This document shows, piece after piece, positions 20,555 to 56,323 of a stretch of DNA of 64,000 bases (its first letter is position 1; the number at the start of each line of letters is the position of its first letter). The translations under genes were made by a program, and so were the position numbers. Location of the stretch: the NCBI RefSeq assembly GCF_001552435.1, contig NZ_BCRE01000004.1:1-64000 (forward strand), in the 5' to 3' direction. The notes beneath the pieces were generated by a model. That model was not told the origin of the DNA. It did not search any database and was given only the letters and a program-made list of their open reading frames with translations. Source of the DNA: Kribbia dieselivorans NBRC 106261. GTDB taxonomy: Bacteria; Actinomycetota; Actinomycetes; Actinomycetales; Dermatophilaceae.

Positions 20555-20565
20555 TGGTCGGACAA
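20555..20565. promoter_or_regulatory. FadR-like operator copy 1, divergent SDR / MenB-type gene
   Basis: TGGTCGGACAA is a one-mismatch match to TGGTCnGACCA. It lies 35 bp before the SDR start and 92 bp before the MenB-type gene, so it could govern both directions. An extra ACCAA half-site follows at 20570-20574. Confidence 0.6.
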
Positions 20566-20657
20566 TTAAACCAACCGTACATGCCGAGTGGGCGATTGCA
20601 CCAGAGGTGGCATCATCCCATCACCGGGGAGATCCCCAGCGGGCATAGGGTGCAGCC

Positions 20658-21512
20658 ATGCCAACCGCACGTGAGTACGCCCCGGTCGAGTGGACCCAGC
20701 AGGGCGAATACGAGGACATTCGGTACGACCTCAGCGGCGACGGGATCGCCAAGATCACTATCTGTCGACCGGAGGTGCGCAATGCGTTCCGTCCGCAGAC
20801 GCTGATCGAGATCTCCGACGCGCTGACCTTGGCGCGCGAGGATGGCGACGTCGGCGTCATCATCCTCACCGGTGAGGGCCCGGACGCCTTCTGCTCCGGC
20901 GGTGACCAGCGCGTGCGCGGTGACACGGGTTACTTGACGGAGCCCGGTAAGGCGGGCTCGGTGGGACGGTTCCACGTGACCGACCTCCAGATCCAGATCC
21001 GACGACTGCCCAAGCCGGTCGTGGCCATGGTGGCCGGTTACGCGGTCGGTGGCGGGCACATCCTCCACCTCGTCTGCGACCTGACGATCTCTGCCGACAA
21101 CGGCAAGTTCGGCCAGGTCGGCCCGAAGGTCGGCTCCTTCGACGGCGGCTACGGCGCGGCCCTGCTGGCCGACCTCGTCGGGCCGAAGAAGGCCAAGGAG
21201 ATCTGGTTCCTCTGCCGGATGTACGACGCGCAAGAGGCGCGCGAGATGGGGCTGGTCAACACCGTCGTGCCGCTGGCCGATCTCGAGTCCGAGACGGTGG
21301 CGTGGTGCCGCGAGATGTTGGAGAAGTCACCATTCGCCCTGCGTCTGATGAAGGCGAGCTTCAACGCCTCGGAGGATGGCATGGCCGGCCTGCAGCAGCT
21401 GGCGCACGACGCGAACCTGCTCTTCTACAGCACGGACGAGGCGAAGGAGGGGCGCGAGGCCTACAAGGCCAAGCGTCGCCCGGAGTTCGAGAAGTTCCCG
21501 CGCCGCCCGTGA
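20658..21512 (+). CDS. MenB/BadI-type crotonase (naphthoyl-CoA synthase or ring-opening hydrolase)
   Basis: 284 residues. [37 protein letters not shown] and [16 protein letters not shown] place it in the MenB/BadI branch, as does the C-terminal [20 protein letters not shown]. MenB closes a ring in menaquinone synthesis by a Dieckmann reaction; BadI runs the reverse, opening 2-oxocyclohexanecarboxyl-CoA to pimelyl-CoA. No other men gene is in the window, and the gene sits among acyl-CoA catabolic genes behind a FadR-like site, so ring opening is a serious alternative. Sequence alone is closer to MenB over the first 60 residues. Confidence 0.8.
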
Positions 21513-21651
21513 GGGTTTCGCGATCCGCGGTCCGACCAGGCCGGCGTCGGTGACGGCGCGGACCTGATCGACGCGACGGAGGGGCCTGCCACTGGGGAAA
21601 TCCACACCCCGGTCGTCGGGCCCCTCTTGTGTATGCCACAGGCCCCAACTA

Positions 21652-21662
21652 TGGTCCAACCA
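21652..21662. promoter_or_regulatory. FadR-like operator copy 2 overlapping a promoter
   Basis: TGGTCCAACCA, a perfect TGGTnnnACCA dyad, ends 23 bp before the ligase start. It overlaps a possible -10 (TATGGT, 21650-21655) that has TTGTGT 17 bp upstream (21627-21632). Binding would block the promoter. Confidence 0.65.
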
Positions 21663-21685
21663 TTCGCGGTAGTGGGAGGATCAGT

Positions 21686-23335
21686 ATGGACGTGACCAGT
21701 CTCTACGGGCGTCGAAACACCGACCGGTGGAACCGGATGGTCGTCGGCGACGTGTTCGAGCGGGTGCGCTGGAGCACTCCGGACAAGGTGGCCCTCATCG
21801 GGTGGGAGGGGGCCTACGGGAGCGCGGACCTCGCCCGGGTCACCTACGCCGAGGCCGACGATCGCGCGAATCAGGTGGCCAACGCCCTGCTGGCACGAGG
21901 CCTCGAACGCGGGGCTCGCGTCCTGCTGTACTGCGACAACTCCATCGAGGCGGTCCTGTCGATGATCGGGGTCGCGAAGGCGGGGCTGGTGGCCGTGCCG
22001 GTCAACCCGCACCTGGCCGGTGATCTGCTCCGGTGGGTGGTCGACCTGACCGAGCCGAGCTTCGTCATCGCCGACGCCGAACATGTGGGCCGGGCCGCCG
22101 ACGTGCTGGGTTCGGCTCCGGGTGTGGGCGTGACCATCGAGATCGGGGGCGTCGCCGCTGCGGGCAGCGTGGGCTGGGAGGCGTGGCTGCGGGAGGTGCC
22201 CACCTCCGAGCCCGACGTCGAGATCGCGCTGCACGCCGATGACATCTGGTGTCTGACCTTCACCTCCGGTACGACCGCGATGCCGAAGGCGTCGATGTCG
22301 TCGAACACCTTCTCCTACCTGTCGGCGTGGGCCTACTCGATGTCGTTGACGCGCGGTTTGGATGTCGAGACCGATCTCATCCAGGCCACGTTCCTGCCGA
22401 TCATCTACCACACGGGTTTCAGTTCCAGCGTGCTCGCCTCCGTGCTGACCGGCGGCACCCTGGTCCTGGGCCGGCGCCCGAACGCCGAGGCCCTGGCCCT
22501 GGCCGTGACGACGACCCGGGCGACCGCCGTGTGGGCCGGAGCGCCGCTCTGGGTGCAGAAGTTGACCGACGAGGCCACGGCTCACCCGGCGAGCATCGAT
22601 CTGAGCTCCCTCACCGTGGTGATGTTCGCGTGGGGAACGATTCGGCCGGCGATGTTCGAGGAGGTCCGTCGGGTCTGTGCCGATGGCGTCCGCCTGCTCG
22701 AGGTGTTCGGGCAGACGGAGTCGATGTCGTGCTACCGCTTCTGGCCACACCGTGAGCCGGCGAAATTCGCCGAAAGCATCGAGGGCGTCAACCACGTCGG
22801 CCGACCCAACCCCCTGCTGGCCGCGCAGATCGTGGACCTCGACGGCACGCCACTGCGCGGGACGGTGGGAGTGCCGGGGGAGGCGGTGTACCGATCTCCG
22901 GCGATCAGTTCCGGCTACTACCGCGACGAGGTCGCCACGGCGGAGGCCTTCCGTGGAGGCTGGTTCCACTCCGAGGACAGCTGTCGTTACACCGACGACG
23001 GCTCCCAGATCATGGTCGACCGCTACAAGGACATCGTGAAGTCCGGTGGCGAGAACATCTCGTCCCTGCGCGTCGAGACCGTCCTGGCCGACTGCCCGGG
23101 TGTCGAGAAGGTCGCCGTCGTCGGGATCCCCGACGATCGCTGGGGCGAGCGGGTCATCGCCGTGCTCACGGCCCGGGCCGGAGCCGAGGTCACCGAGGAG
23201 GCCGTCCTGGACTACGCGCGAGCGCACCTGGCCGGGTACGAGGTGCCCAAGCAGGTGCTCGTGGTGGATGCCCTGCCCGAGACCGTGGGGGGCAAGGTGC
23301 AGAAGCACCGGGTCCGCAACCAACTGTCGACATGA
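21686..23335 (+). CDS. Acyl-CoA synthetase, AMP-forming
   Basis: 549 residues of the ANL superfamily. The ATP loop FTSGTTAMPKASM near residue 191 is slightly unusual, with Ala-Met where Gly-Arg is common. VFGQTESMSCYR is the adenine motif, GGWFHSEDSC replaces the usual HTGD, and GGKVQKHRVRNQ ends the protein with the catalytic Lys. It would activate a carboxylic acid entering the island. It starts with ATG after GTGGGAGGA, 23 bp downstream of operator copy 2, and leads an operon with a regulator, an SDR and an MDR. Confidence 0.85.
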   Translation: MDVTSLYGRRNTDRWNRMVVGDVFERVRWSTPDKVALIGWEGAYGSADLARVTYAEADDRANQVANALLARGLERGARVLLYCDNSIEAVLSMIGVAKAGLVAVPVNPHLAGDLLRWVVDLTEPSFVIADAEHVGRAADVLGSAPGVGVTIEIGGVAAAGSVGWEAWLREVPTSEPDVEIALHADDIWCLTFTSGTTAMPKASMSSNTFSYLSAWAYSMSLTRGLDVETDLIQATFLPIIYHTGFSSSVLASVLTGGTLVLGRRPNAEALALAVTTTRATAVWAGAPLWVQKLTDEATAHPASIDLSSLTVVMFAWGTIRPAMFEEVRRVCADGVRLLEVFGQTESMSCYRFWPHREPAKFAESIEGVNHVGRPNPLLAAQIVDLDGTPLRGTVGVPGEAVYRSPAISSGYYRDEVATAEAFRGGWFHSEDSCRYTDDGSQIMVDRYKDIVKSGGENISSLRVETVLADCPGVEKVAVVGIPDDRWGERVIAVLTARAGAEVTEEAVLDYARAHLAGYEVPKQVLVVDALPETVGGKVQKHRVRNQLST

Positions 23336-23351
23336 CCTGGGGGTGGGGCAG

Positions 23352-26463: not shown

Positions 26464-26474
26464 TGGTTAGACCA
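26464..26474. promoter_or_regulatory. FadR-like operator copy 3 within a promoter spacer
   Basis: TGGTTAGACCA is a TGGTnnnACCA dyad lying between TTGACC (26456-26461) and TACGCT (26479-26484), elements spaced 17 bp apart like a sigma-70-type promoter. It is 45 bp upstream of the ligase start. The position suggests direct repression. Confidence 0.7.
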
Positions 26475-26519: not shown

Positions 26520-28163
26520 ATGACGACTGACCTGAAGACTGTTCACGACCGATACTCCGAGCAGGAGATCGCCGCGTGGTACGAGTCGGGTTACTGGACC
26601 ACCGAGAGCTTCGCGGCCCTGGCCCACCGTCAGGCTGAGGCCCACGGGGACAAGACCTCCTTCATCGACGACCGCGGGTCGCTCACCTACGCGCAGTTCG
26701 AGGAGCGCGCCCTGCGACTGGCCGTCGGGCTGCACCGTCAGGGGATTCAGCGCGGCCAGCGCGTGGTGGTCCAACTGCCGAACTGGACCGAGTTCCCGAC
26801 CATCGCGCTGGCGCTCTCGCGGATCGGGGCGGTACTCGTCCCCGTCATGCCGATCTACCGCAACGACGAGGTGGCCTACGTCCTCCAGCATTCCGGGGCC
26901 GTGGCCGCCATCACGTGTGGTTCCTTCCGCAACTTCGACCACGCCGCAATGTTCCGCAGCCTCCGGCAGCAGGCGCCGGCCGTGAAGAACCTGTGGGTGG
27001 CCCGCAGCGAGGGCGAGGAGGCCCTGGACGCCCTCATCGTCGAGGGTGACCTGGCGACCCTGACGAGCGAACTCCCCGAGGACAGCCGGCCCGACGACGC
27101 CTTCCTGATCGTCTACACCTCCGGCACCACCTCCCGGCCGAAGGGCTGCCTGCACACCTTCAACACCGTTCGCACCAGCGCTGCGGCCATCCACACGGCC
27201 CTCGACTACACCGCCGACGACGTCCAGTTCGGCCCTTCGCCGATCACCCACGCCACGGGTCTGGTGACCAGCGTCGTGTTGCCCATGCTGGCCGGCGCCT
27301 CCTCCTACCTCATGGAGGTGTGGGAGCCCACGGCCGGTGTCGCCGCCGTCAAGCGCCACGGGTGCACCGCGGCCGTCACCGCGGCCCCGTTCCTGCAGAT
27401 GCTCCTGGACGCCAACGACCCAGGGCAGAACGACGCCGGCACCCTCACCCGCTGGATCTGCGCCGGCTCGCCCATCCCGCCGCCGCTCGTCGAGCGGGCC
27501 GGTCGCGAGTTGCCCGGGTTGCGGGTTCTCAGCCTGTACGGTCGGTCGGAGAACTTCGTCACGACGACCTGCAGCACCGGTGACGACCCCGGTCGAGCGC
27601 TGACCTCCGACGGCCAGGCCGTCGACGGAGGTTCGGTCAAGATCGTCGGTGGCGATGGCCTCGAGGTGGCCCGTGGCGAGGAGGGCGACATCGCCTACCG
27701 CGGCCCGAGCCACATGATCGAGTACTTCCACGACGACGAGCAGACCGGTGCGCTGTTCACCCCGGAGGGCTACTCCCGCTCCGGCGACCTCGGGCGCATG
27801 GACGAGGACGGTTTCGTTCGGGTCACCGGGCGCACGAAGGACCTGATCATCCGGGGCGGCATGAACATCAGCGCTCGCGAGATCGAGGAGCACCTCATGC
27901 GCCACGACTCGGTGTCGCAGGTCGCGGCCGTCGGCATGCCGGACGACCGACTCGGCGAGAAGGTCTGCATCTACGTGGTCCCGGCTGACGGCGCGTCACC
28001 GACCCTGGCGGAACTGACCGACTTCCTGCGCAGCGACGGCATCGCGACACAGAAGCTCCCCGAGCGACTGGAGGTCGTCGACGCGTTGCCGATGACCGCC
28101 ACGGGCAAGGTGCAGAAGCATGTCCTGCGCCAGCAGATCGCCGAGAGGCTGGCAGCGGTATGA
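26520..28163 (+). CDS. Acyl-CoA ligase, cyclohexanecarboxylate-CoA ligase (AliA)-like
   Basis: 547 residues. The N-terminal block YSEQEIAAWYESGYW, the MPIYRNDEVAYVLQHSGA block and the ATP loop YTSGTTSRPKGCLH near residue 198 resemble AliA-type ligases. SLYGRSENFVTT is the adenine motif, SRSGDLGRMDEDGFVRVTGR the hinge, and TGKVQKHVLRQQ the catalytic Lys region. It would activate an alicyclic or aromatic acid. The specificity is inferred from family resemblance. It is paralogous to 37299 and coupled by ATGA to the next gene. ATG 26520 was chosen because the upstream frame runs through the operator. Confidence 0.82.
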   Translation: MTTDLKTVHDRYSEQEIAAWYESGYWTTESFAALAHRQAEAHGDKTSFIDDRGSLTYAQFEERALRLAVGLHRQGIQRGQRVVVQLPNWTEFPTIALALSRIGAVLVPVMPIYRNDEVAYVLQHSGAVAAITCGSFRNFDHAAMFRSLRQQAPAVKNLWVARSEGEEALDALIVEGDLATLTSELPEDSRPDDAFLIVYTSGTTSRPKGCLHTFNTVRTSAAAIHTALDYTADDVQFGPSPITHATGLVTSVVLPMLAGASSYLMEVWEPTAGVAAVKRHGCTAAVTAAPFLQMLLDANDPGQNDAGTLTRWICAGSPIPPPLVERAGRELPGLRVLSLYGRSENFVTTTCSTGDDPGRALTSDGQAVDGGSVKIVGGDGLEVARGEEGDIAYRGPSHMIEYFHDDEQTGALFTPEGYSRSGDLGRMDEDGFVRVTGRTKDLIIRGGMNISAREIEEHLMRHDSVSQVAAVGMPDDRLGEKVCIYVVPADGASPTLAELTDFLRSDGIATQKLPERLEVVDALPMTATGKVQKHVLRQQIAERLAAV

Positions 28164-30009: not shown

Positions 30010-30133
30010 GCCATGTGTCTAACAGCGGCGGCCGCCGGGGTCACCGAGGAGACATCGACCGGGTGTGGAGATCTCCAGCCCGCGCGCTCGTCGGTCTTGC
30101 CGCCAGCGGGCCCCCTCCGGCAGGGTCGCGGCC

Positions 30134-31180
30134 ATGAATGAACCAGATCCCGAGGCCATGCGCAGCCGACTCGACGGTCTGTTCGAGACCCGCTGGCCGG
30201 GGGCTCGCACCGGTGACCTGCGACGGCTCCCCGGCGGAGTCTCGAGTCTGACCTATCTCGTGTCCGTGACGGGCCTGGCGGAGGTGAGCCACGTGGTGGT
30301 GAAGGTGGCTCCGCCCGGACTGGCGCCGGTGCGCAATCGGGACGTGCTCCGGCAGGCGCGATTGATGCGGGCGCTGGGCTCCGCGACCGACCTGCGTCTG
30401 CCGGAGGTGCTGCTGGAGGAGGACGGCGATCCACCGTTGTTCGTCATGACGCGGCTGGTGGGCGACAGCTACGAACCGCTCACCGACGTGGCCGCGGACC
30501 CACCCAGCCCCGCGGTGGTCCGGGAGCGGGCGTTCGCAGCCGCCGGGGCCCTGGCGGCGATGCAGGCCGTGTTGCCGGAGGAGCTCGGGCTGGGGGACGA
30601 GCCGGTGCTCACCCCGGCCGACGAGCTGGCGAAGTGGGCCGCCCTGTTCGACACGGTCGACGACGACATCTGTCCGACGCAGAACGGCCTGCGGGCGCGG
30701 CTGGAATCCGCGACACCCGAGTTGGGCGGGGCGGTCGTCACGCACGGGGACTTCCGGTTGGGCAACATGATCTTCGAGGGCTCCGACCTGTCGGGCGTCA
30801 TCGACTGGGAGATCTGGGGGGTCGGAGATCAGCGTCATGACGTCGCGTGGCTGGTCATGCACGCCGACCCGGTCCACCGCTTCCATGACACCCGACCGGA
30901 GGCCGACGTGGTCGCGGGCCGAGCGATGCCGTCACCGGCCGAGATGCTTGACGCCATCGTGGCGGCCACGGGCCGGGGGAGTGAACTGCTGCCGAACCTG
31001 GGCTGGTTCCTGGCCCTGAATCAGTACAAGGTGGCCTCGACGGTCGGCGTCCTGGCCAAGCGCAACCGGCGCGCGCCGCACCCACGACCGGACCTGGTCG
31101 CGGCCGCGCAGACGCTGTCGGTCGTCGTCGAACGCGGCCACGACCTGCTCGATCGTGGCATGGAGGCCTTCAGTCGCTGA
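30134..31180 (+). CDS. APH-family phosphotransferase (ACAD10/11 or LvaA kinase-like)
   Basis: 348 residues of the aminoglycoside-phosphotransferase fold. LPGGVSSLTYLV is the glycine loop, HVVVKVAPPG carries the ATP-binding Lys, VVTHGDFRLGNM near residue 220 is the catalytic loop, and VIDWEIWGVGDQRHDVAWLVM carries the metal-binding Asp. Relatives fused to or beside acyl-CoA dehydrogenases phosphorylate 4-hydroxyacyl-CoA so the hydroxyl can be eliminated. An acyl-CoA dehydrogenase lies 1.6 kb away. An antibiotic target is less likely in this setting. The stop overlaps the convergent MDR gene by 11 bp. Confidence 0.8.
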   Translation: MNEPDPEAMRSRLDGLFETRWPGARTGDLRRLPGGVSSLTYLVSVTGLAEVSHVVVKVAPPGLAPVRNRDVLRQARLMRALGSATDLRLPEVLLEEDGDPPLFVMTRLVGDSYEPLTDVAADPPSPAVVRERAFAAAGALAAMQAVLPEELGLGDEPVLTPADELAKWAALFDTVDDDICPTQNGLRARLESATPELGGAVVTHGDFRLGNMIFEGSDLSGVIDWEIWGVGDQRHDVAWLVMHADPVHRFHDTRPEADVVAGRAMPSPAEMLDAIVAATGRGSELLPNLGWFLALNQYKVASTVGVLAKRNRRAPHPRPDLVAAAQTLSVVVERGHDLLDRGMEAFSR

Positions 31181-32156: not shown

Positions 32157-32635
32157 GACGAGGCCGCCTCGGCGACGCGAGCGTTCTCGAAGTACGCCAC
32201 GACGGCGGTCGCGACGCAGACCGGGCCGGGCAGGCCCTCGGCCTCGAAGACCTGCTCGATGGTGACCCGAACGCCGCCCTCGATGTCGCGCACCTCCGCG
32301 ATCCGCGCCGACATGCGCACGCGCGCGTCGACGGGGACCGGTTGGAGGAAGCGCACCTTCTCGAAGCCGTAGTTCAGGGCCAGCGGCACACCCGTCACGG
32401 CGTACAACTCGTAGAGGAACCGCGGGCCCAGGGAGAGGGTCAGCAGGCCATGGGCAATGGTCGAATCGAGACCCGCCGCTCGGGCGGCCTGCGCGTCGAC
32501 GTGGATCGCCTCGAAGTCGTCGGTGGCCCGGGCGAAGTCGTCGATGCGTTGCTGATCGACGGTGAACCACGGGGTGGATCCGAGGTCGCGGCCGCCGGCC
32601 GCGCGGATGGCGTCAATGCCGTGAAGTTCCAACAT
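32153..32635 (-). CDS. MaoC family hydratase/dehydratase
   Basis: A 160-residue single hotdog protein. The catalytic signature is intact as DDFEAIHVDAQAARAAG, then STIAHGLLTLSL, the hydratase-2 motif with Asp and His. It would hydrate trans-2-enoyl-CoA to the (R)-3-hydroxy form or reverse this. ATG 32635 gives the usual N-terminus. It leads the unit with the MDR gene. The divergent region to 32810 shows no FadR-like site. Confidence 0.86.
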   Translation of the reverse strand: MLELHGIDAIRAAGGRDLGSTPWFTVDQQRIDDFARATDDFEAIHVDAQAARAAGLDSTIAHGLLTLSLGPRFLYELYAVTGVPLALNYGFEKVRFLQPVPVDARVRMSARIAEVRDIEGGVRVTIEQVFEAEGLPGPVCVATAVVAYFENARVAEAASS

Positions 32636-32809
32636 GCCCCGATCCTGCTCGCCTCGGCCCGCGACTGCCCGTCCGGCGACGAGGCGCGATGTGGAATCCC
32701 ACACCGCTCCCCACCATGCCCGCCCCGCGGACCGCATTCAGTCCGTACCGTCCGGCCCAGAGACCGCAGCACCGACCCACGCATATCGACCTACGCAAGG
32801 ACCATTGCC

Positions 32810-34054: not shown

Positions 34055-34095
34055 GTCGGGCGCAGGTGGCCGGGGGCTCCGTTAATCTGCCCGGC

Positions 34096-35335: not shown

Positions 35336-35346
35336 TGGTCAGACCA
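35336..35346. promoter_or_regulatory. FadR-like operator copy 4, perfect
   Basis: TTGGTCAGACCAA (35335-35347) contains the perfect core TGGTCAGACCA. It lies immediately before the AAAGGAGG ribosome site of the MDR gene and downstream of a possible promoter, TTGCCA (35304-35309), 17 bp, TAGCGT (35327-35332), so it would cover the start of transcription. Confidence 0.75.
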
Positions 35347-39018: not shown

Positions 39019-39063
39019 TCATGTCGGGGCGGGGCTGCTGGGCGCTGACCCTAGGATCGCCGC

Positions 39064-39732: not shown

Positions 39733-39750
39733 CTCGAATGATCATTCGAG
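39733..39750. promoter_or_regulatory. 18-bp perfect palindrome, candidate TetR operator
   Basis: CTCGAATGATCATTCGAG is fully self-complementary. It ends just before the AAGGAG sequence of the operon leader and lies 85 bp after the TetR stop. Size and symmetry fit a TetR dimer; the adjacent TetR is the natural candidate. Confidence 0.65.
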
Positions 39751-43992: not shown

Positions 43993-44003
43993 TGGTCAGA
44001 CCT
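43993..44003. promoter_or_regulatory. FadR-like operator copy 7, divergent promoters
   Basis: TGGTCAGACCT, one base off the perfect core, lies between the dehydratase pair (29 bp away on the minus side) and the acyl-CoA dehydrogenase gene (41 bp away). A TTGACG box at 43983-43988 may be the -35 of the plus-strand promoter. Confidence 0.65.
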
Positions 44004-44044
44004 ATAGTACCATTTAGCCATCATTGCGAGGAGAGGAGACGGCT

Positions 44045-45220
44045 GTGGAACTGACCGACTCACCTGACGAGGCGGCCTTCCGTTCGAAGCTGCGAACCTG
44101 GCTCGTCGACACATTGCCCCTGCTGCCCTGGCCGGAACCGGTCACGCTGGAGGGCAAGAAGCCGTTCTGGCAACAGTGGCAACGGCTGTTGTTCGACGCC
44201 GGATATGCCGGCATCAACTGGCCGCGCGAATACGGCGGCCAAGGGGCCAACGAGATCATCCGCGCCATCTACACCGAGGAACTCGACCGGGCCGGCGCCC
44301 CCGAGCGGCTCAACACGATCGGCGAGGACTTCGCCGGACCGACGATCAGCCAGTTCGGCACCTCCGCCCAGAAGGAACGCTTCCTCGAGAAGATCCTGCG
44401 TGGCGAGGAGATCTGGTGCCAGCTCTTCTCCGAACCGGAGGCCGGCTCGGACCTCGCCTCCCTGCGGACGAAGGCGACCAAGGTCGAGGGCGGCTTCCGG
44501 ATCAACGGACAGAAGATCTGGACGTCCCGAGCGCACATCGCCGACCACGCCATCCTCCTGGCCCGCACCGGTGGCGGTGAGCGTCACCGGGGGATCACCT
44601 ACTTCCTCGTGCCGATGGACGCTCCCGGCATTACCGTGCGGCCGTTGGAGCACATGCTCGGTGAGGCGGAGTTCAACGAGGTCTTCCTGGACGACGTCTT
44701 CATCCCCGACGAGATGGTCGTCGGCGAGGTCGACGGCGGCTGGTCGGTGGCCATGGGCACGTTGGCCTTCGAGCGGGTGGCGATCGCCACCGGGCGCGTA
44801 AACACCAAGCGCGCTGTCGACGAGATCGTGGCTGACGTGCGATCCATGACCGACGACGACGGTCAACCGCTGGGCCGCCACGAGGGCGTCCGGCAGCAGG
44901 TGGCCGACCTCTACGGACGGGCCCTCATCCACCAGCTCATCGGTCAGCGCGTGATCAGCCTGGCGGCCACCGATGGCCCGCCCGGTCCGGTCACCTCGAT
45001 CGGCAAGTTGTACTTCTGCCCCCTCGTCGAGGACCTGGCCGACTTCCGGCTCTCGCTCGAACCCCTCGGCGGTCAGACGGGGTTGGACGATCCCGGTCAG
45101 GTGGCGGGCCGCTGGCTTAGGCTGGCCTATCAGGCCCGAGGGACCGCCATCGCCGGCGGATCGACCTTCATTCAGCGCAACATCGTCGCCGAGCGCATGC
45201 TCGGCATGCCGAGGAGTTGA
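44045..45220 (+). CDS. Acyl-CoA dehydrogenase
   Basis: A 391-residue FadE-type ACAD. NWPREYGGQGA, the substrate/FAD block CQLFSEPEAGSDLASL near residue 135, INGQKIWTSRAHIADHAILLART, and a C-terminal FIQRNIVAERMLGMPRS are typical of actinobacterial steroid- and branched-acid-type ACADs. Such enzymes often pair with a second shorter ACAD subunit; the 355-residue protein at 48114 would suit. GTG 44045 is preferred because GGAGAGGAG precedes it. The stop overlaps a TTG of the next gene. Confidence 0.87.
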   Translation: MELTDSPDEAAFRSKLRTWLVDTLPLLPWPEPVTLEGKKPFWQQWQRLLFDAGYAGINWPREYGGQGANEIIRAIYTEELDRAGAPERLNTIGEDFAGPTISQFGTSAQKERFLEKILRGEEIWCQLFSEPEAGSDLASLRTKATKVEGGFRINGQKIWTSRAHIADHAILLARTGGGERHRGITYFLVPMDAPGITVRPLEHMLGEAEFNEVFLDDVFIPDEMVVGEVDGGWSVAMGTLAFERVAIATGRVNTKRAVDEIVADVRSMTDDDGQPLGRHEGVRQQVADLYGRALIHQLIGQRVISLAATDGPPGPVTSIGKLYFCPLVEDLADFRLSLEPLGGQTGLDDPGQVAGRWLRLAYQARGTAIAGGSTFIQRNIVAERMLGMPRS

Positions 45221-47229: not shown

Positions 47230-48003
47230 CTAATCCGGCAAGGTGATGTCGGTGCGCACCTCGACCTTGAGGAGCTCCTCGGCATAGACGTGAACGTGAC
47301 GGTCCATTCGCCTCATGGCGGCTGGGCCGTCACCGTCACGGATGGCGCGATTGATGCTCTGGTGGGCCTTGAAGGTGGTCTCCATGACCTCGTCGTCGAT
47401 GAACTGCTCGTTCTCCGTGGCCTCGTAGATGGCAGGGGAGAGGGCCATCATCAATCCGGTCATCAGTTCGTTGTGCCCAGCCTGCGCGACACCGACGTGC
47501 CAGTCGATGTTGGCCTGGAGGAAGGAAGCCAGGTCGGGGGCATCCTTGATTCGCTGGTTGGCGGCCTCCAGCACGGCGAGGTCCTCCTCGGTGCGGTTGC
47601 GTGCCGCGAGCTTGGCACTGAACGGCTCCAGGCCCTCGCGGGTCTCGAGCAGGGCCTTGAGTCGAATCTGGCGCCCGCGGATGAGCAGGCCGACGCTGCG
47701 CGCCATCGACTCCTCGCCCGGGCGCTGCACGAAGGCGCCACCGGCCCGGCCAGCCTTGATGCGGACCAGGCCCTGGACCTCGAGGATGCGCAAGGCCTCC
47801 CGAACCGTGGTGCGACTCATGTTCGTCTGCACGACGAGCTCACGCTCCGGCGGCAGGGGTGTGCCTTCGACGAACTCCCCGGACAGAATGCGTTCGCGCA
47901 ACTCGTCGGCCAGGACATCCGAGGCCTTCGGCACGGACATCGGCGCCAGCTGGATCGTGGAGCGCCCCGAGCGCTCCTTGGCGGGCTCTTCGGCAGTGGG
48001 CAT
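47230..48003 (-). CDS. GntR family FCD-type regulator, FadR-like; candidate master regulator
   Basis: 257 residues. The winged helix at about residues 25-95 includes GTPLPPERELVVQTNMSRTT and VREALRILEVQGLV; the recognition helix SRTTVREAL matches FadR's RTTLREV. The C-terminal FCD domain (about 105-245) binds an acyl or organic acid in relatives, with HxxH-type positions such as IDWHVGVAQAGHN and TFKAHQSINRAI. Operator copy 8 (48038-48048) is 34 bp upstream, and nine more copies stand before other operons of the island, so it is probably the regulon's controller and autoregulated. It points opposite to the ACAD at 48114. Confidence 0.88.
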   Translation of the reverse strand: MPTAEEPAKERSGRSTIQLAPMSVPKASDVLADELRERILSGEFVEGTPLPPERELVVQTNMSRTTVREALRILEVQGLVRIKAGRAGGAFVQRPGEESMARSVGLLIRGRQIRLKALLETREGLEPFSAKLAARNRTEEDLAVLEAANQRIKDAPDLASFLQANIDWHVGVAQAGHNELMTGLMMALSPAIYEATENEQFIDDEVMETTFKAHQSINRAIRDGDGPAAMRRMDRHVHVYAEELLKVEVRTDITLPD

Positions 48004-48037: not shown

Positions 48038-48048
48038 TGGTCAGACCT
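48038..48048. promoter_or_regulatory. FadR-like operator copy 8, regulator's own divergent region
   Basis: TGGTCAGACCT, one base off the perfect core, lies 34 bp from the GntR start and 65 bp from the acyl-CoA dehydrogenase start at 48114. An extra ATGGTC half-site is at 48029-48034. It would allow autoregulation. Confidence 0.68.
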
Positions 48049-49189: not shown

Positions 49190-49200
49190 TGGTCTGACCA
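49190..49200. promoter_or_regulatory. FadR-like operator copy 9, perfect, before the seven-gene operon
   Basis: TGGTCTGACCA is the perfect core. It lies in the spacer between TTGCTG (49182-49187) and TATGGT (49205-49210), 17 bp apart, and 37 bp upstream of the next ACAD start. The downstream TATGGTTGG also occurs after copy 5. Confidence 0.75.
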
Positions 49201-49237: not shown

Positions 49238-50404
49238 GTGGACTTCGATCTGACCGAGGATCAACAGGAGATTCGAAAGGCCGTGCGCGAACTCGCGGGC
49301 ACCTTCGATGACCAGTATTGGATGGAGAAGGACCTCGCGCACGAGTTCCCCACCGAGTTCTACGAGGCGTTCGCCAAGGGTGGTTGGCTCGGGGTGACCA
49401 TGCCCGAGCAGTACGGCGGTCATGGCATGGGCATCACCGAGGCCTCGATCCTCCTCGAGGAGGTCGCTGCCTCCGGCGCCGGCATGAACGGGGCCAGCTC
49501 GATGCACCTGTCGATCTTCGGCATGCACCCGGTCGTCGTGCACGGCTCCGACGAACTCAAGGCCCGCACGCTGCCGCGCATCGTCAATGGTGACCTGCAT
49601 GTCTGCTTCGGGGTGACCGAACCCGGCGCCGGCCTGGACACGACGAAGATCACGACGTTCGCCAAGCGCGACGGCGACGACTACGTCGTCAACGGCCGCA
49701 AGGTCTGGATCTCGAAGGCGATGGAGTCCGAGAAGATCCTGCTCCTGACGCGCACCACCAAGGCCGAGGACGTCGAGAAGAAGACCCAGGGCATGACCCT
49801 GTTCCTGACCGACCTCGACCGCGACAAGGTCGAGATCCGCCCCATCAAGAAGATGGGTCGCAACGCGGTCACCTCCAACGAGCTGTACATCGACAACCTG
49901 CGCATCCCGGCGGAGGATCGTGTCGGCGAGGAGGGGCAGGGCTTCAAGTACATCCTCGACGGGCTCAACCCGGAGCGGATGCTCGTCGCCGCCGAAGCCC
50001 TCGGCATCGGTCGCGCAGCGCTGCGCACGGCCGTGAAGTACGGCAACGACCGTGAGGTGTTCGGCCGCCCGATCGGCAAGAACCAGGGCATCCAGTTCCC
50101 GCTGGCCGACTCGCTCGCCCGACTCGACGCCGCCGAGCTCGTCCTGCGCAAGGCCACGTGGCTGTACGACATCGGTCGCCCGTGTGCCAAGGAGGCCAAC
50201 ATGGCCAAGTACCTCTGCGCCGACGCCGGCTTCGAGGCCGCCGATCGTGCCGTGCAGACCCACGGCGGCATGGGCTACTCGGAGGAGTACAACGTCTCGC
50301 GTTACTTCCGGGAGTCACGTCTGACCCGGATCGCCCCGCTCAGCCAGGAGATGGTTCTCAACTACCTCGGCGAGCACGTCCTCGGCCTTCCCCGGAGCTA
50401 CTGA
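49238..50404 (+). CDS. Acyl-CoA dehydrogenase, isovaleryl-CoA dehydrogenase-like catalytic position
   Basis: A 388-residue ACAD. FGVTEPGAGLDTTKITT is the FAD/substrate block, NGRKVWISKA the beta domain, and DREVFGRPIGKNQGIQ and QTHGGMGYSEEYNVSRYFRES the C-terminal part. The usual EGT Glu near the end is absent (RIAPLSQEM instead). A Glu lies in GLNPERMLVA, the position used as base by isovaleryl-CoA dehydrogenase, so catalysis may use that residue. It leads an operon with SDR, thiolase, CoA-transferase, lyase, SDR and crotonase genes. Confidence 0.85.
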   Translation: MDFDLTEDQQEIRKAVRELAGTFDDQYWMEKDLAHEFPTEFYEAFAKGGWLGVTMPEQYGGHGMGITEASILLEEVAASGAGMNGASSMHLSIFGMHPVVVHGSDELKARTLPRIVNGDLHVCFGVTEPGAGLDTTKITTFAKRDGDDYVVNGRKVWISKAMESEKILLLTRTTKAEDVEKKTQGMTLFLTDLDRDKVEIRPIKKMGRNAVTSNELYIDNLRIPAEDRVGEEGQGFKYILDGLNPERMLVAAEALGIGRAALRTAVKYGNDREVFGRPIGKNQGIQFPLADSLARLDAAELVLRKATWLYDIGRPCAKEANMAKYLCADAGFEAADRAVQTHGGMGYSEEYNVSRYFRESRLTRIAPLSQEMVLNYLGEHVLGLPRSY

Positions 50405-51153
50405 TGTTTGAACTCACCGGGCGTACTGCCCTCGTTACCGGAGCCGGAGGCGGCATCGGCGCCGCCGTGGCTCGTGCCTTCGGAGCCGCCGGAGCCGCGG
50501 TGATGGTCACCGACGTCAACGAGGAGGCTGCGGCTGCCGTCGCACAGGTGATCCGTGATGCCGGCGGTGTCGCGCAGCACGCGGTCCTCGATGTCCGCAA
50601 CGCCGAACAGGCCGCAGCCGCCGTCGAGGGCGCCGCCGCCCTGGGCGACGGGCACGTGCACATCCTCGTCAACAACGCCGGCGCCATTGCGCCCGCGATG
50701 TTCCCCAACATGGACGAGGACTCGTTCCGTCGCGTCATCGACATCCACCTCATCGGCAGCTACGTCTGCAGCAAGGCCGTGCTCGACAAACTGCCCCAGG
50801 ACGGTACCGGCCGGATCATCAACGTCACCTCCGCGGCGGGCCTGACCGGCACGATCGGGCAGGCCAACTACGGGGCGGCCAAGGCGGGCATCATCGGCCT
50901 GACGAAGTCGCTGGCCAAGGAGCTGGCGCGGCGCCAGGTGACGGTCAACGCCATCGCCCCGCTGGCGGCCACGGCGATGACCGAGACGGTGCGCACCAAC
51001 GAGAAGCTCTCGGCGAAGAACCTCGCCCGGGTGGCACTGGGCCGCTGGGCCGAGCCCGACGAGATCGCGCCGACCTTCGTGTTCTTCGCCTCCGACGGAG
51101 GTTCATACATCACCGGGCAGGTCCTGCCCGTCGACGGCGGGACGGTCATCTGA
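50404..51153 (+). CDS. SDR family dehydrogenase (3-hydroxyacyl-CoA type)
   Basis: 249 residues, classical SDR. TGAGGGIGAAVARAFG near residue 12, LVNNAGAIAP, and the catalytic set in NVTSAAGLTG and ANYGAAKAG (Ser-Tyr-x3-Lys) are all present. It ends VLPVDGGTVI. It should make a 3-oxoacyl-CoA ahead of the thiolase encoded next. Its ATG overlaps the stop of the ACAD, and its stop overlaps the thiolase start. Confidence 0.88.
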   Translation: MFELTGRTALVTGAGGGIGAAVARAFGAAGAAVMVTDVNEEAAAAVAQVIRDAGGVAQHAVLDVRNAEQAAAAVEGAAALGDGHVHILVNNAGAIAPAMFPNMDEDSFRRVIDIHLIGSYVCSKAVLDKLPQDGTGRIINVTSAAGLTGTIGQANYGAAKAGIIGLTKSLAKELARRQVTVNAIAPLAATAMTETVRTNEKLSAKNLARVALGRWAEPDEIAPTFVFFASDGGSYITGQVLPVDGGTVI

Positions 51154-52355
51154 TGGCACGCACGATCAACGGTCCGTTCATGACCCACTCCCGCGAGGTC
51201 CTCATCACCGAGGCGGCGCGCACGCCGTTCGGTCGCTCGCACGCCGAGAAGGGCTGGTTCCGCGACGTCCACCCGAACGAGATGCTCGGCCGGGTCTACA
51301 CCGAGCTCCTCACCCGATCCGGCATCGAGCCGATGACCGTCGAGGACCTCATCGTCGGGTGCACCGCGCCCTTCGGTGAGCAGTCCCGCAACATCGGTCG
51401 CAACGCCTGGCTGCAGGCGGGCTACCCGCCCGAGGTGCCCGCCGTGGTGCTCGACCGTCGCTGTGGCTCGGCCCAGACCGCCATCGAGATGGGCGCCTCG
51501 CTCGTCGGCACCGGCACCCACGAGGTCGTCATCGCCGGAGGCGTGGAGCACATGGGTCACGTGCCGATCAACTCGCCGGCGAAGCTCGAGGAGTTGTACG
51601 GCGTGGCCTGGCCGCCCGCCCTGCGCGAGCGGTACGACTTCGTCCACCAGGGCGAGAGCGCCGAACTCATCGCCGACCGCTGGGGCATCACCCGCGAGGA
51701 CATGGACGCCTTGGCCGTCGAGTCCCACCGGCGCTCCGTCGAGGCCCAGAATGACGGGCGGTTCGCGGGCGAGATCATCCCGATGGAACTGGACGGCGAG
51801 ATCCGCACCAGCGACCAGACCGTCCGCCCCGGTACCTCGATGGAGACCCTCGCCGGGCTCAAGCCGGCCTTCCGCCCGGAGGGTGGGCGGGTCACCGCCG
51901 GCTCCTCTTCACCGATCTGTGACGGCGCCAGCGGGGTGCTGCTCGCGTCCCGCGACGCCGTCAACCAGCACGGTCTGCGTCCCCGGGCGCGCATCGTCGA
52001 CCACACCACGGTCGGCGTCGACCCGATCATCATGCTCACCGGACCGATCCCGGCGACCCGCAAGTTGCTGGAGCGCAACGGGCTGACGATGGCGGACATC
52101 GACCTCGTCGAGATCAACGAGGCCTTCAGCTCGGTGGTCATCGCCTGGGAGCGCGAGCTCGGCGCGGACATGTCCAAGGTCAACGTCAACGGCGGCGCCA
52201 TCGCCCTGGGGCACCCCGTCGGCGCGACCGGCGCTCGCCTCGTGGGCACGGCCGTGGCCGAACTGGAGCGTCGCGACGGCGAACTCGCCCTGATCACCAT
52301 GTGCTGTGGCGGCGGCATGGGCACCGCGACGTTGGTTCAGCGGGTCGAGTCGTGA
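51153..52355 (+). CDS. Thiolase (acetyl-CoA acyltransferase)
   Basis: 400 residues. The acyl-binding Cys is in VLDRRCGSAQTAIEMG near residue 100, NEAFSSV and GHPVGATGARL hold the catalytic His, and MCCGGGMG holds the second Cys. The RRCGS context differs from the NRLCGSG of the housekeeping-type thiolase at 12110 and is common in catabolic thiolases. It should cleave the 3-oxoacyl-CoA made by the SDR encoded just before. A second ATG at 51180 could be the true start. It is coupled on both sides. Confidence 0.9.
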   Translation: MARTINGPFMTHSREVLITEAARTPFGRSHAEKGWFRDVHPNEMLGRVYTELLTRSGIEPMTVEDLIVGCTAPFGEQSRNIGRNAWLQAGYPPEVPAVVLDRRCGSAQTAIEMGASLVGTGTHEVVIAGGVEHMGHVPINSPAKLEELYGVAWPPALRERYDFVHQGESAELIADRWGITREDMDALAVESHRRSVEAQNDGRFAGEIIPMELDGEIRTSDQTVRPGTSMETLAGLKPAFRPEGGRVTAGSSSPICDGASGVLLASRDAVNQHGLRPRARIVDHTTVGVDPIIMLTGPIPATRKLLERNGLTMADIDLVEINEAFSSVVIAWERELGADMSKVNVNGGAIALGHPVGATGARLVGTAVAELERRDGELALITMCCGGGMGTATLVQRVES

Positions 52356-53602
52356 CCCCGGAGCTGCGTGACCTCATCGCGCCGGGAGCCGGCGTGTGGT
52401 GGAGCCAGACGAGCGCCGAACCGACTCCGTTGGTCCACGCCCTGCTGGATCTCGCACCCGAGCTCGTCGACGTCACCGCCTTCATCGGCATGACGTGGGA
52501 CAAGCGCGTGGCCACGCAGCTCCCGCCGCAGATTCGAGCCCTGTCCTACGGCGCGCTGGGCGACCTGCGTCACCTCAGCGCGGCGGGCCGGTTGGAGGTC
52601 GTGCCCTGTCACTTCTCCAACCTGCCGCGGCTGTTCGCCCAAGGTCGACTCCCGCACGACGTCGGTCTGATCCAGGTCTCACCCCCGGATGCCGACGGCA
52701 ACTGCTCGCTGGGGACCGGTGTCGACTACGTCGCCGACGCGATCGCCCACACCCCGGTGCTCATCGCCGAGGTCAACCACCAGATGCCCGCCACCGTCGG
52801 ATCGGTGCGCCTCCCGCTGAGCCGGTTCGCGGCCACCGTCGAGACCGACCGCCCGCTGCTGCAGGCCCCCGAACGATCTCCCGGAGCCGTGGAGCTCGCG
52901 ATCGCGGGTCACGTCGCCGACCTCGTCGAGGACGGCGACACGATCCAGGTCGGGGTCGGCGTCATCCCGTCGGCCATCCTGGACGCGCTGTCCGGGCACC
53001 GCGATCTGGGCCTCCATTCGGGACTGATCTCCGATCCGGTGCTGCGGCTGGTGCAGGCCGGGGCCCTGACCGGGGCCCGCAAGGAGATCGACCCGGGCAT
53101 GATGGTCACCGGCGCCGCATTGGGCTCGACCGAGCTCTACGCGTGCCTGGGCGACCTGCCGGTGCAGTTCCGGCCCGTCAGCTACACCCACGCGCCGACC
53201 ACCTTGGCCCGACTGCGCTCCCTGGTCTCGATCAACTCGGCCATCGAGGTCGACCTCACCGGCCAGGCCGGCAGCGAGGTGCGAGGCACGACGTATGTCG
53301 GGGCCATCGGCGGCCAGACCGACTTCTCCCGGGCGGCGGCCCAGACCGGCGCGCGCTCGATCATCGTGCTGCCCGCCACGAGCAAGGGGAAGTCCACCAT
53401 CAAGGCGCACCTGGAGTTCGGCGCGATGTCGACCTCCCGCGCCGACATCGACGTGGTGGTCACCGAACACGGCGCCGCCCATCTGACCGGGTGCTCCCTG
53501 CCCGAACGAGCGCGCCGCCTCATCGAGGTAGCCGCCCCCGAACACCGTGAGCAGCTCGAGCGCTCCGCCCAGGTCGACCGCGCCGCGGTCCCGACCCGCT
53601 GA
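52352..53602 (+). CDS. Acetyl-CoA hydrolase/CoA-transferase family protein
   Basis: 416 residues of the Cat1/4-hydroxybutyrate CoA-transferase family. The glutamate that forms the CoA thioester lies in SINSAIEVDLTGQAGSEV, and IGGQTDFSRAA, then VLPATSKGKSTIKAHL and VTEHGAAHLTG, follow. It would move CoA between an acid and acetyl- or another acyl-CoA, or hydrolyse it. The GTG overlaps the thiolase stop. Its place between thiolase and lyase suggests CoA saving near the end of the pathway. Confidence 0.87.
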   Translation: MTPELRDLIAPGAGVWWSQTSAEPTPLVHALLDLAPELVDVTAFIGMTWDKRVATQLPPQIRALSYGALGDLRHLSAAGRLEVVPCHFSNLPRLFAQGRLPHDVGLIQVSPPDADGNCSLGTGVDYVADAIAHTPVLIAEVNHQMPATVGSVRLPLSRFAATVETDRPLLQAPERSPGAVELAIAGHVADLVEDGDTIQVGVGVIPSAILDALSGHRDLGLHSGLISDPVLRLVQAGALTGARKEIDPGMMVTGAALGSTELYACLGDLPVQFRPVSYTHAPTTLARLRSLVSINSAIEVDLTGQAGSEVRGTTYVGAIGGQTDFSRAAAQTGARSIIVLPATSKGKSTIKAHLEFGAMSTSRADIDVVVTEHGAAHLTGCSLPERARRLIEVAAPEHREQLERSAQVDRAAVPTR

Positions 53603-53613
53603 AAGGAATCACC

Positions 53614-54537
53614 GTGACGACGACAGCCCTGCCCAAGAAGGTCCAGATCCGTGAAGTCGGCCCCCGCGACGGCTTCCAGAACGAGCCCGAGAGCATCCCG
53701 ACCCCGGACAAGGTGCGGCTCATCAACGCGTTGGGGGCCGCCGGCTTCAAGCGCATCGAGGTCGCCAGCTTCGTGCGCCCCGACGTCATTCCGCAGCTCG
53801 CCGACGGGGTCGAGGTGCTGCAGCAGATCGACGTTCCCAAGGACGTGCGCCTCATGGTGCTCGTGCCGAACAGCAAGGGCCTGGACAACGCGCTGCGGTA
53901 CCGCGACCTGTTCCACGACGTCGTCATCTTCGTCTCCGGCTCTGAGACCCACAACCGCAAGAACGTCAACCGCACGATCGCCGAGACGATGGCCGACAAC
54001 GAGGTCATGGCCCAACGCATCGTCGCCGAGGGGCTCAAGTGCGCGGCGGTCATCGCGACCTCGTTCGGCTGCCCGTTCGAGGGGCACGTCGACATGCAGC
54101 ACGTCCTCGACCTGGCCGAACGGTTCGCCGCCGCCGGGGCCACCGAGATCGGGTTCGGCGACACCACCGGCATGTGCAACCCGGCCTACTCGCGGGCCTT
54201 CTTCACCCGAGCCCTCGAACGACTCTCCGGTGTGGAGGTGACCGCCCACTTCCACAACACCCGTGGGCAGGGGCTGGCCAACGCCTACGCCGCCCTCGAG
54301 GCCGGGTGCACGAGTTTCGAATCGAGCTTCGGTGAGCTCGGCGGCTGTCCGGTGCCGGCCGGTTCGACCGGCAACATCGCCACCGAGGACCTCGTGAGCA
54401 TGTTCCACGAGATGGGCGTGGACACCGGGCTCGACCTGGGCAACGTCATCGACGCCGCGCGCCAGGCGCAGTCGGTGCTGGGCCGGAAGCTGACCAGCCA
54501 CTCCATCGTTGCCGGCCCCGTCACCTGGCACAACTGA
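53614..54537 (+). CDS. Hydroxymethylglutaryl-CoA lyase-like enzyme
   Basis: 307 residues, TIM-barrel DRE family. REVGPRDGFQNE holds the metal-binding Asp and catalytic Arg, FVSGSETHNRKN and ATSFGCPFEGHV are the barrel strands, TAHFHNTRGQGLAN carries metal-binding His, and ELGGCPVPAGSTGNIATEDLV holds the catalytic Cys. It cleaves HMG-CoA, or a substituted 3-hydroxy-3-methylacyl-CoA, to acetoacetate and acetyl-CoA-type products. No leucine-pathway carboxylase lies in the window, so a catabolic substrate from the island is likely. Confidence 0.87.
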   Translation: MTTTALPKKVQIREVGPRDGFQNEPESIPTPDKVRLINALGAAGFKRIEVASFVRPDVIPQLADGVEVLQQIDVPKDVRLMVLVPNSKGLDNALRYRDLFHDVVIFVSGSETHNRKNVNRTIAETMADNEVMAQRIVAEGLKCAAVIATSFGCPFEGHVDMQHVLDLAERFAAAGATEIGFGDTTGMCNPAYSRAFFTRALERLSGVEVTAHFHNTRGQGLANAYAALEAGCTSFESSFGELGGCPVPAGSTGNIATEDLVSMFHEMGVDTGLDLGNVIDAARQAQSVLGRKLTSHSIVAGPVTWHN

Positions 54538-54568
54538 CCTTCACCACACACTCACACGGGAGAGAAAC

Positions 54569-55330
54569 ATGACTGCACGCGTCGCCATCGTCACCGGTGG
54601 TGCCCAGGGCATCGGCCGGGGCATCGTCGAGTCACTCGTCGCACAGGGCCACACCGTGGCCATCGCCGACCTCAACGGCGAGACCGCCACCAGCACGGCC
54701 AAGGAGGTCGCCGCAGCCTCGGGCGGCAACGTCATCGCGGTGCGCATGGACGTCACCGACACCGACTCGGTGCGCTCGGCCGTCGCCGAGGTCGAGCAGC
54801 AGCTCGGCCCGGTCGAGGTCCTCGTCAACAACGCCGGCTGGGACGACTTCATGCCCTTCGTCAAGACGAACGAGGAGTTCTGGGACAAGATCCTCGACAT
54901 CAACTTCAAGGGCGCCCTGCGGGTCATCCAGGCGGTCGTGCCCGGCATGATGGAGCGCGGTTTCGGCCGGGTCGTCAACATCGGCTCCGACGCCGGTCGG
55001 GTCGGATCGTCGTTGGAGGCCGTGTACTCCGGCTCCAAGGGCGGCATCATCGCCTTCACGAAGACGCTGGCCCGCGAGGTGGCCACGAAGGGCGTCACCG
55101 CGAACACGGTCTGCCCGGGCCCGACCGACACCCCGGCGCTGCGCAACTTCACCCAGGCCTCCGGCCAGGACGCCGACAAGGTCATCGCCGGCATGACCCG
55201 CGCTGTGCCGATGAAGCGACTGGGCACGCCGAGTGACATCGGCCCCGCCGTGGCGTTCTTCGCCTCCGACGGCGCCGGTTTCGTCACCGGCCAGACGCTG
55301 TCCGTCAGCGGCGGCCTGACGATGGCCTGA
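54569..55330 (+). CDS. SDR, 2-hydroxycyclohexanecarboxyl-CoA dehydrogenase (BadH)-like
   Basis: 253 residues, classical SDR. TGGAQGIGRGI binds the nucleotide. The block LVNNAGWDDFMPFVKTNEEF, then VNIGSDAGRVGSSLEAVYSG and KTLAREVA, then CPGPTDTPAL closely follows the pattern I recall for BadH of Rhodopseudomonas, which oxidises the ring hydroxyl before ring opening. Other SDRs also share part of it, so the function is likely but unproved. The Ser-Tyr-Lys set is present (SDAG, YSGSK). A 31-bp gap and GGGAGAG precede the ATG. It is the sixth gene of the operon. Confidence 0.78.
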   Translation: MTARVAIVTGGAQGIGRGIVESLVAQGHTVAIADLNGETATSTAKEVAAASGGNVIAVRMDVTDTDSVRSAVAEVEQQLGPVEVLVNNAGWDDFMPFVKTNEEFWDKILDINFKGALRVIQAVVPGMMERGFGRVVNIGSDAGRVGSSLEAVYSGSKGGIIAFTKTLAREVATKGVTANTVCPGPTDTPALRNFTQASGQDADKVIAGMTRAVPMKRLGTPSDIGPAVAFFASDGAGFVTGQTLSVSGGLTMA

Positions 55331-55360
55331 GTGGCCCAGTCCGAAGCAAAGGATTCGACC

Positions 55361-56143
55361 ATGACAGAACACAACTCCGCCGTCGGTTGGGCCGTTCCCG
55401 AGCCGGGCATCATGCTCGTCACGCTCCAGCGCCCACCGGCCAACGCCCTGGGCCCGGTCATCATCGAGGGCGTCGAGGCCGCGCTGGCCGAGGCCGACCG
55501 CCGCGGTGACATCAAGATCGTCGTCATCGCCTCGGACCTGCCCGGGGTCTTCGCCGCCGGTGCCGACATCAAGCACATGTCCAACATCGATGCCGCCTCC
55601 TTCACCGCCTACGGTGACGGTCTGCGGGCGACGTTGGACCGCCTGACCGGCACCGACTACATCACGGTGGCGGCCATCGAGGGACTTGCCCTCGGTGGTG
55701 GCCTGGAGTTGGCCATCGCCTGTCACCTGCGGGTGGCGGGCCGAGACGCCAAGCTCGGTCTGCCGGAGGTCAAGCTCGGCCTGATCCCGGGCGCCGGTGG
55801 CACGCAGCGGCTGCCGCGGCTGGTCGGTCGCGGACGCGCCCTGGACATCATGCTGACGGCGCGGCAGGTGCCGGCCGACGAGGCCCACGTCATGGGTCTG
55901 GTCGACCGGCTCGTCGAGCCCGGCACGGCCGTCGAGGAGGCGCTGACCCTGGCGCGCGGACTGTGCGGCATGTCGCAGCCGGCGCTCAAGGCCATCGTCC
56001 GCACGGTCGACGCGTCCTTCGACACCGCCATCGACGAGGGCTTCCGCTACGAGATCGAGCAGGAGCAGGAGTTGTTCGAGCACGGTGAGGCGCAGGAGGG
56101 GCTGTCCGCCTTCCTCGGCAAGCGCGCCCCCGAGTTCGCCTGA
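55361..56143 (+). CDS. Enoyl-CoA hydratase
   Basis: 260 residues, with both hydratase Glu positions present: AAGADIKHM, LALGGGLELAIACHLRVAG and LGLPEVKLGLIPGAGGTQ. This is the full crotonase pattern, so true hydration of a 2-enoyl-CoA is likely. BadK-type cyclohexenoyl-CoA hydratases have the same pattern. AAAGGA precedes ATG 55361; a GTG at 55331 lacks such a site. It is the last gene of the operon. Confidence 0.88.
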   Translation: MTEHNSAVGWAVPEPGIMLVTLQRPPANALGPVIIEGVEAALAEADRRGDIKIVVIASDLPGVFAAGADIKHMSNIDAASFTAYGDGLRATLDRLTGTDYITVAAIEGLALGGGLELAIACHLRVAGRDAKLGLPEVKLGLIPGAGGTQRLPRLVGRGRALDIMLTARQVPADEAHVMGLVDRLVEPGTAVEEALTLARGLCGMSQPALKAIVRTVDASFDTAIDEGFRYEIEQEQELFEHGEAQEGLSAFLGKRAPEFA

Positions 56144-56158
56144 GCGCAGTTCCCTCGG

Positions 56159-56217
56159 CCCCACCCGGCGCGGGTCGGCCACCACGCGTGGTCCTCGCCG
56201 ACCCGAATCGGGTGGGG
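56159..56217 (+). terminator. Long three-level hairpin at operon end
   Basis: CCCCACCCG (56159-56167) pairs with CGGGTGGGG (56209-56217). Inside, GGGTCGGC pairs with GCCGACCC, and at the tip ACCACGCGTGGT is a perfect palindrome. It lies 16 bp after the hydratase stop and before the transporter promoter. Confidence 0.7.
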
Positions 56218-56312
56218 TCAGGTATCGCCCTCGTTCGACGCTCCGGCGTGCGTGGGCGACTCACCCCAGTGGGGGAGGTGGATGACCCCATCGGGGGATG
56301 CTCTCCCATTGT

Positions 56313-56323
56313 TGGTCAGACCA
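56313..56323. promoter_or_regulatory. FadR-like operator copy 10, perfect, before the importer operon
   Basis: TGGTCAGACCA is the perfect core, extended to TTGGTCAGACCAA. It lies 71 bp upstream of the solute-binding protein start, so uptake and breakdown would share one regulator. Confidence 0.75.

Follow-up and report, generated by a model that had tools for sequence, protein, structure and literature searches.

A catabolic island of Kribbia dieselivorans with island-confined operators and a predicted FCD-type GntR repressor

The window analysed here is a stretch of 64,000 nucleotides (bases 1–64,000 of contig C4, 105,093 bp) from the genome assembly of Kribbia dieselivorans (3.29 Mb, 310 contigs, 96.8% complete). 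It contains a catabolic island with repeated dyads of the TGGTCnGACCA type in its gene leaders and the gene for a GntR/FCD regulator (47230–48003, transcribed leftwards, 257 amino acids), a predicted repressor; together with its regulator this is a real, conserved and island-confined regulon, in which the regulator itself is new and its kind is known. The initial annotation described ten such dyads as a FadR-like regulon and had located them exactly: three are perfect, three retain both the TGGT and ACCA arms, and four have one arm base changed. All ten contain TGGTnnnAC, share AT flanks and fall between genes, although intergenic sequence makes up only 7.8% of the region. They lie 11–92 bp from the next rightwards start, in agreement with an earlier estimate of about 90 bp, and six are flanked by −35-like and −10-like hexamers, several of them weak (7–8 of 12); the other four are not clearly between promoter hexamers. 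Gene boundaries were set by family matches and a simple script based on codon usage, rather than by a full gene caller.

From left to right, operator TGGTCGGACAA (20555–20565) lies between divergent genes for a leftwards-transcribed short-chain dehydrogenase/reductase (SDR) and a rightwards-transcribed MenB/BadI-like hydrolase, and TGGTCCAACCA (21652–21662) is 23 bp ahead of an AMP-forming ligase start at 21686. The operator TGGTTAGACCA (26464–26474) is placed between TTGACC and TACGCT, ahead of the AliA-like ligase gene at 26520, and a site is also present at the orthologous gene of G091, a member of the same family. The perfect operator TGGTCAGACCA (35336–35346) directly precedes a zinc-dependent alcohol dehydrogenase gene at 35358 and has a conserved counterpart in G091 that fits the 13-mer without mismatch. 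A second copy of TGGTCCAACCA (37224–37234) sits between TTGACA and TATGGT, ahead of another AliA-like ligase gene at 37299, and has counterparts at the orthologous ligase genes of G091, a second family member (G043), Rhodococcus and Amycolatopsis; TGGTCTGACCT (39705–39715) is between TTGCCA and CATGAT, ahead of the AMP-forming ligase gene at 39784. Two copies of TGGTCAGACCT occupy divergent promoter regions, one (43993–44003) between a leftwards-transcribed MaoC-like gene and a rightwards-transcribed PimC-like acyl-CoA dehydrogenase gene, and the other (48038–48048) between the leftwards-transcribed regulator gene and the rightwards-transcribed acyl-CoA dehydrogenase gene at 48114. The former and its −10-like block are conserved in five other genomes, and also in Williamsia. 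The perfect operator TGGTCTGACCA (49190–49200) precedes the operon at 49238–56143, whose ortholog has a site or a half-site in six genomes, and a further perfect copy of TGGTCAGACCA (56313–56323) precedes an ATP-binding cassette (ABC) importer operon.

With at most one mismatch, the 11-mer matches 11 times in the window against 3.4 ± 1.6 in dinucleotide shuffles (0 of 100 reach 11), and with at most two mismatches the window is not enriched (34 observed, 43 expected). The eleventh one-mismatch match, at 21528, was rejected as an operator; its flanks are GC-rich, it misfits the AT-flanked form, and it is probably a chance match. Because the shuffles ignore coding structure, counts over the whole genome and the genomes of the family are better controls. 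In the window, the AT-flanked pattern WTGGTYNRACMWWW has 15 strand-matches, which fall at ten places (0.01 expected). This count is circular, since the ten sites themselves supplied the pattern; the lack of matches in the rest of the genome and the results in other genomes are independent evidence. When the genome was searched with patterns (not a true weight matrix) and with the reversed pattern as control, the AT-flanked form was found at 11 distinct places, all on contig C4, and its reverse at none. These eleven operators span about 48 kb, ten of them being those in the window and one lying beyond it at 68,032, so the equal density of motifs outside the island that would speak against a regulon was not found. 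The plain core with one mismatch is uninformative at genome scale (119 matches, 143 for the reversed control), and four perfect TGGTCnGACCA matches on other contigs have GC-rich flanks resembling (unannotated) coding sequence. Among 188 genomes of the family, K. dieselivorans has the most forward matches (11) and G091 has six; the remaining genomes have at most four on either strand, and roughly half are without any match.

The closest orthologs of the regulator are actinobacterial, and are 73–74% identical in four named Rhodococcus species and a Rhodococcus metagenome-assembled genome, 68% in Amycolatopsis, and 64% in Williamsia. Within the family, close orthologs are found only in G043 (75%) and G091 (72%) among the 188 genomes searched, a patchy distribution that suggests spread by horizontal transfer. 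Gene order around the regulator is conserved among the orthologous clusters, and in G091, G043, Rhodococcus, Amycolatopsis and Williamsia the orthologous genes have retained operators ahead of them; alignments show that the −10-like block TTTTGGTCTGACCTATAGTATCATT beside the operator is likewise conserved across genera, and that the flanking DNA is not. All six sites in the 3.0 Mb genome of G091 are at 944–956 kb, around its regulator gene, and a broader pattern admitting Rhodococcus variants has four matches in R. opacus (8.1 Mb), all in a 26 kb stretch at the cluster. One of these precedes a badI-like gene orthologous to the gene behind the 68,032 site, and provides independent confirmation of that site, which had been found by scanning. 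The regulator orthologs of G091 and R. opacus have DNA-contact residues identical to those of the K. dieselivorans protein. Seven genomes retain the site that lies between the regulator gene and the dehydrogenase gene divergent from it, and autoregulation through the 48038 operator is therefore likely. This co-conservation of sites and regulator supports binding of the operators by the 47230–48003 protein, which is the likely binder, as had been proposed.

Many of the matches in other genomes of the family adjoin their own FCD regulator genes, whose products are about 30% identical to the 47230–48003 protein, which marks TGGTCnGACCA as a generic FCD operator. In G054, G057, G059, G061, G064, G065, G035 and G025 such operators occur in pairs about 53–57 bp apart, mostly beside another FCD regulator gene (about 30% identity); this paired layout recurs and belongs to a different regulator.

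The regulator has an N-terminal GntR winged helix-turn-helix (wHTH) domain (PF00392, 67.1 bits, cut-off 27) and a C-terminal FCD domain (PF07729, 82.3 bits, cut-off 24.3) that is all-helical in an AlphaFold2 model. Three proteins of the genome score above the Pfam cut-off for a GntR domain; this is the only one of them with an SRTT recognition helix, the others having GRAT and SHPP. At the positions of FadR residues E34, R35, T44, R45, T46, T47, R49 and E50 it has E, R, S, R, T, T, R and E, identical in eight of eight orthologs, and at that of H65 it has alanine (threonine in two orthologs). The operator has the GT-N3-AC spacing and TKGT/ACMA boxes of the FadR/FCD subfamily, for which the consensus is NyGTM-N0-1-KACNy (Suvorova et al. 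2015, PMC4494728). As this form fits the whole subfamily, and recurs beside unrelated FCD regulators, it does not support the FadR-like identity given in the initial annotation; the island-restricted regulon stands. E. coli-type FadR identity was rejected on the domain, the model scores and the metal-site residues: scores against the FadR equivalogs are low (TIGR02812, 33.1 bits, cut-off 249.2; NF003444, 37.9, cut-off 189), and the PdhR, NanR and LldR models outscore them. The AlphaFold2 model (mean predicted local distance difference test score 88) matches a Streptococcus agalactiae GntR protein, Corynebacterium glutamicum LldR (2DI3) and NanR ahead of FadR. Residues N165, H169, H214 and H236, conserved in eight of eight orthologs, match the metal-binding Asn/His/His/His of Ps5454, whose equivalents in E. 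coli FadR are non-ligand residues (PMC7674646). By sequence and model the protein is thus a metal-type FCD regulator that resembles LldR, PdhR and NanR more than FadR. DgoR, with a comparable metal site, binds D-galactonate jointly with the metal (PMC7674646), and with an effector domain of this type a carboxylate inducer appears more likely than the acyl-CoA that had been proposed, which is unsupported.

The products of the island resemble enzymes of the bad/ali ring-cleavage route with a 3-hydroxy-3-methylglutaryl-CoA (HMG-CoA) lyase in addition. There are five AMP-forming ligases, of which two, both below the model cut-off, resemble cyclohexanecarboxylate-CoA ligase (26520–28163, 420 bits; 37299–38957, 396 bits; both rightwards) and one resembles acetate/acetoacetate-CoA ligase. 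A rightwards-transcribed MenB/BadI-like crotonase-fold gene (20658–21512) codes for a candidate ring hydrolase and is 74–91% identical in related clusters. The island further encodes several acyl-CoA dehydrogenases, including the PimC-like protein (44024–45220, rightwards), enoyl-CoA hydratases, SDRs (one BadH-like), a thiolase and a CoA-transferase. The rightwards-transcribed operon at 49238–56143 codes for an acyl-CoA dehydrogenase, an SDR, a thiolase, a CoA-transferase, the HMG-CoA lyase (325 bits, cut-off 246), the BadH-like SDR and an enoyl-CoA hydratase, in an order conserved in related clusters. It is followed by the importer operon (56395–61043, rightwards), of the branched-chain amino acid type, with a binding protein, two permeases and two ATPases. 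The operon associated with the 68,032 site (65–68 kb, beyond the window) codes for a second BadI-like protein, for which BadI is the best model (354.3 bits, cut-off 467.6), an acyl-CoA dehydrogenase and an SDR. The presence of an HMG-CoA lyase suggests a 4-alkyl-substituted cyclohexanecarboxylate as substrate: on paper, a 4-methylcyclohexanecarboxyl-CoA derivative opened hydrolytically would give 5-methylpimeloyl-CoA, then 3-methylglutaryl-CoA, and then HMG-CoA for the lyase, and the same logic would apply to other 4-alkyl groups on the ring.

We interpret these data as a single-island regulon under the 47230–48003 FCD-type GntR protein, a reading to which we give a probability of roughly 85%, a figure that covers neither inducer nor substrate. 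The protein, probably as a dimer, would bind TTGGTCnGACCAA-type operators over or beside at least 11 promoters, its own included, and block transcription of the importer and of the enzymes acting on alicyclic carboxylic acids. An acid or carboxylate intermediate held in the metal-type effector pocket would release it, so that the pathway as a whole is probably induced in concert. Repression fits the six operators placed between −35-like and −10-like hexamers and the recurrence across genera of an operator with an adjacent conserved −10-like block; a role as activator or bidirectional regulator, for which the four operators not clearly between hexamers could be cited, and to which some FCD proteins lend precedent (CitO, PMC4746285), is unlikely.

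The same regulon might instead respond to an acyl-CoA of the pathway, for example cyclohexanecarboxyl-CoA or a ring-opened dicarboxyl-CoA, as E. coli FadR does. CoA thioesters are the substrates of nearly all of the island enzymes, and the DNA-contact residues are similar to those of FadR, but the effector domain is a PF07729 FCD domain, the protein reaches 33 of the 249 bits set as cut-off for the FadR model, the fold is nearer to LldR, and the conserved metal-site residues are absent from FadR; we regard this alternative as doubtful. Recognition of the sites by another protein is still less probable than activation. Operators are similar throughout the FCD subfamily (PMC4494728) and several regulators are present, namely the GntR proteins encoded on contigs C71 and C102 and the TetR (39064–39648) and GAF-LuxR (34066–35283) proteins of the island, but only the 47230–48003 protein accompanies the sites in every genome examined, and the C71 and C102 proteins differ at the contact positions and have no strict site near them. 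A dyad of this type is not the usual target of TetR or LuxR proteins. That the sites are chance matches in a GC-rich genome would agree with the lack of enrichment at two mismatches and with the plain one-mismatch counts, but is already refuted by the comparative data: the AT-flanked form is confined to the island, its placement is wholly intergenic, and it is conserved across genera.

Several observations weigh against the reading of a single-island regulon for a bad/ali-like pathway. Three promoter-like gaps within the island (30,010–30,133, 32,571–32,809 and 38,958–39,063) contain no site, and promoter hexamers are weak at some sites. G043 has the regulator yet no strict site; its orthologous promoters have one-arm variants with the degenerate arm CGGT, such as CGGTCTGACCT. 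The 56313 site of the importer, perfect in K. dieselivorans, is half-degenerate at the same place in both G091 and G043. Scores for the pathway enzymes fall below the equivalog cut-offs (BadI, 276.5 and 354.3 against 467.6; BadH, 307.5 against 431.2; AliA, 396 and 420 against 792), and these matches are accordingly homologies rather than assignments; the 20658 protein passes the MenB cut-off and not that of BadI. The carboxylate inducer is suggested by residue conservation and family precedent. The earlier proposal that the regulator represses the whole island is an overstatement: an island-restricted regulon is supported, but three gaps are without sites, TetR and GAF-LuxR genes lie inside the island, and one predicted target operon (65–68 kb) lies outside the window. 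That the importer is included agrees with its perfect site, but the site is only half conserved in the relatives. Taken as a whole, the most specific picture, of a horizontally spread actinobacterial island for 4-alkylcyclohexanecarboxylates that proceeds through a 3-alkylglutaryl-CoA to the HMG-CoA lyase step, under a carboxylate-sensing metal-type FCD repressor with about 11 island-only operators, is tentative.

Some other features were also noted. Between the 39705 operator and the ligase gene at 39784, just past the TetR gene, is a perfect 18 bp palindrome, CTCGAATGATCATTCGAG (39733–39750). It occurs only once in the window and was rejected as a shared second operator, and is a possible TetR operator that would give the 39784 promoter two controls. 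G043 and G091 have homologs of the GAF-LuxR gene at the cluster or close to it. An APH-type phosphotransferase and an acyl-CoA dehydrogenase are encoded at 30134–31180 and 32810–34054, with promoters lacking the operator; the pair recalls ACAD10/LvaA-type handling of hydroxyacyl-CoAs. The segment 23336–24841 (1.5 kb) has no confidently assigned gene, and the true start of the zinc-dependent alcohol dehydrogenase open reading frame at 24842 is probably further downstream. A methylmalonyl-CoA-mutase-type protein (7290–10541) combines B12-binding and MeaB GTPase domains in a single chain, which we take to be an IcmF-like fusion. Contig C43 of G000 has (locus L018, 652–3234, leftwards) an 860-aa frame with a profile match to an FCD domain but no wHTH domain, either a fusion or an assembly artefact, whose other parts, named by eye, look like a benzoate dioxygenase reductase (BenC-like) and an SDR (BenD-like).

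The regulon shares with that of E. coli FadR the operator core, the base contacts R35, R45 and T46 (with T44 as serine), and the control of several promoters by a single regulator; it differs in the metal-type FCD C-terminal domain, the replacement of His65 by alanine, the restriction to a single island, and a pathway that is alicyclic and not for long-chain fatty acids. FCD regulators of the LldR, PdhR, NanR and DgoR types are alike in the metal-type domain, in local catabolic control and in giving the best sequence and fold matches, with the GT-N3-AC operator spacing common to LldR, PdhR and DgoR, but serve other pathways from one or few operators in place of about eleven over 48 kb. Homology links the enzymes to the bad/ali pathway of Rhodopseudomonas palustris and Aromatoleum (CoA ligation, dehydrogenation, hydration, oxidation and hydrolytic ring cleavage), from which the island differs in its regulator family and its sub-cut-off scores. 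The nearest actinobacterial parallel for naphthenic acids, the chcpca cluster of Rhodococcus aetherivorans BCP1, has BadI-, BadH-, AliA- and AliB-like enzymes in eight genes that include two for TetR-like regulators (PMC5906575); by description, the K. dieselivorans island is set apart by an FCD regulator, an importer, an HMG-CoA lyase and many more genes. In the literature searched, subscription papers aside, no FCD regulator for such an alicyclic acid cluster is described.

This conserved actinobacterial cluster, apparently uncharacterised in the literature searched, is thus tied to a named regulator and a defined operator, and is also present in culturable Rhodococcus. The operator list is a ready-made set of target genes, and the inducer of the regulator would indicate the substrate of the pathway, making the substrate question testable; alicyclic acids include the naphthenic acids, which are toxic components of the process water from oil sands.

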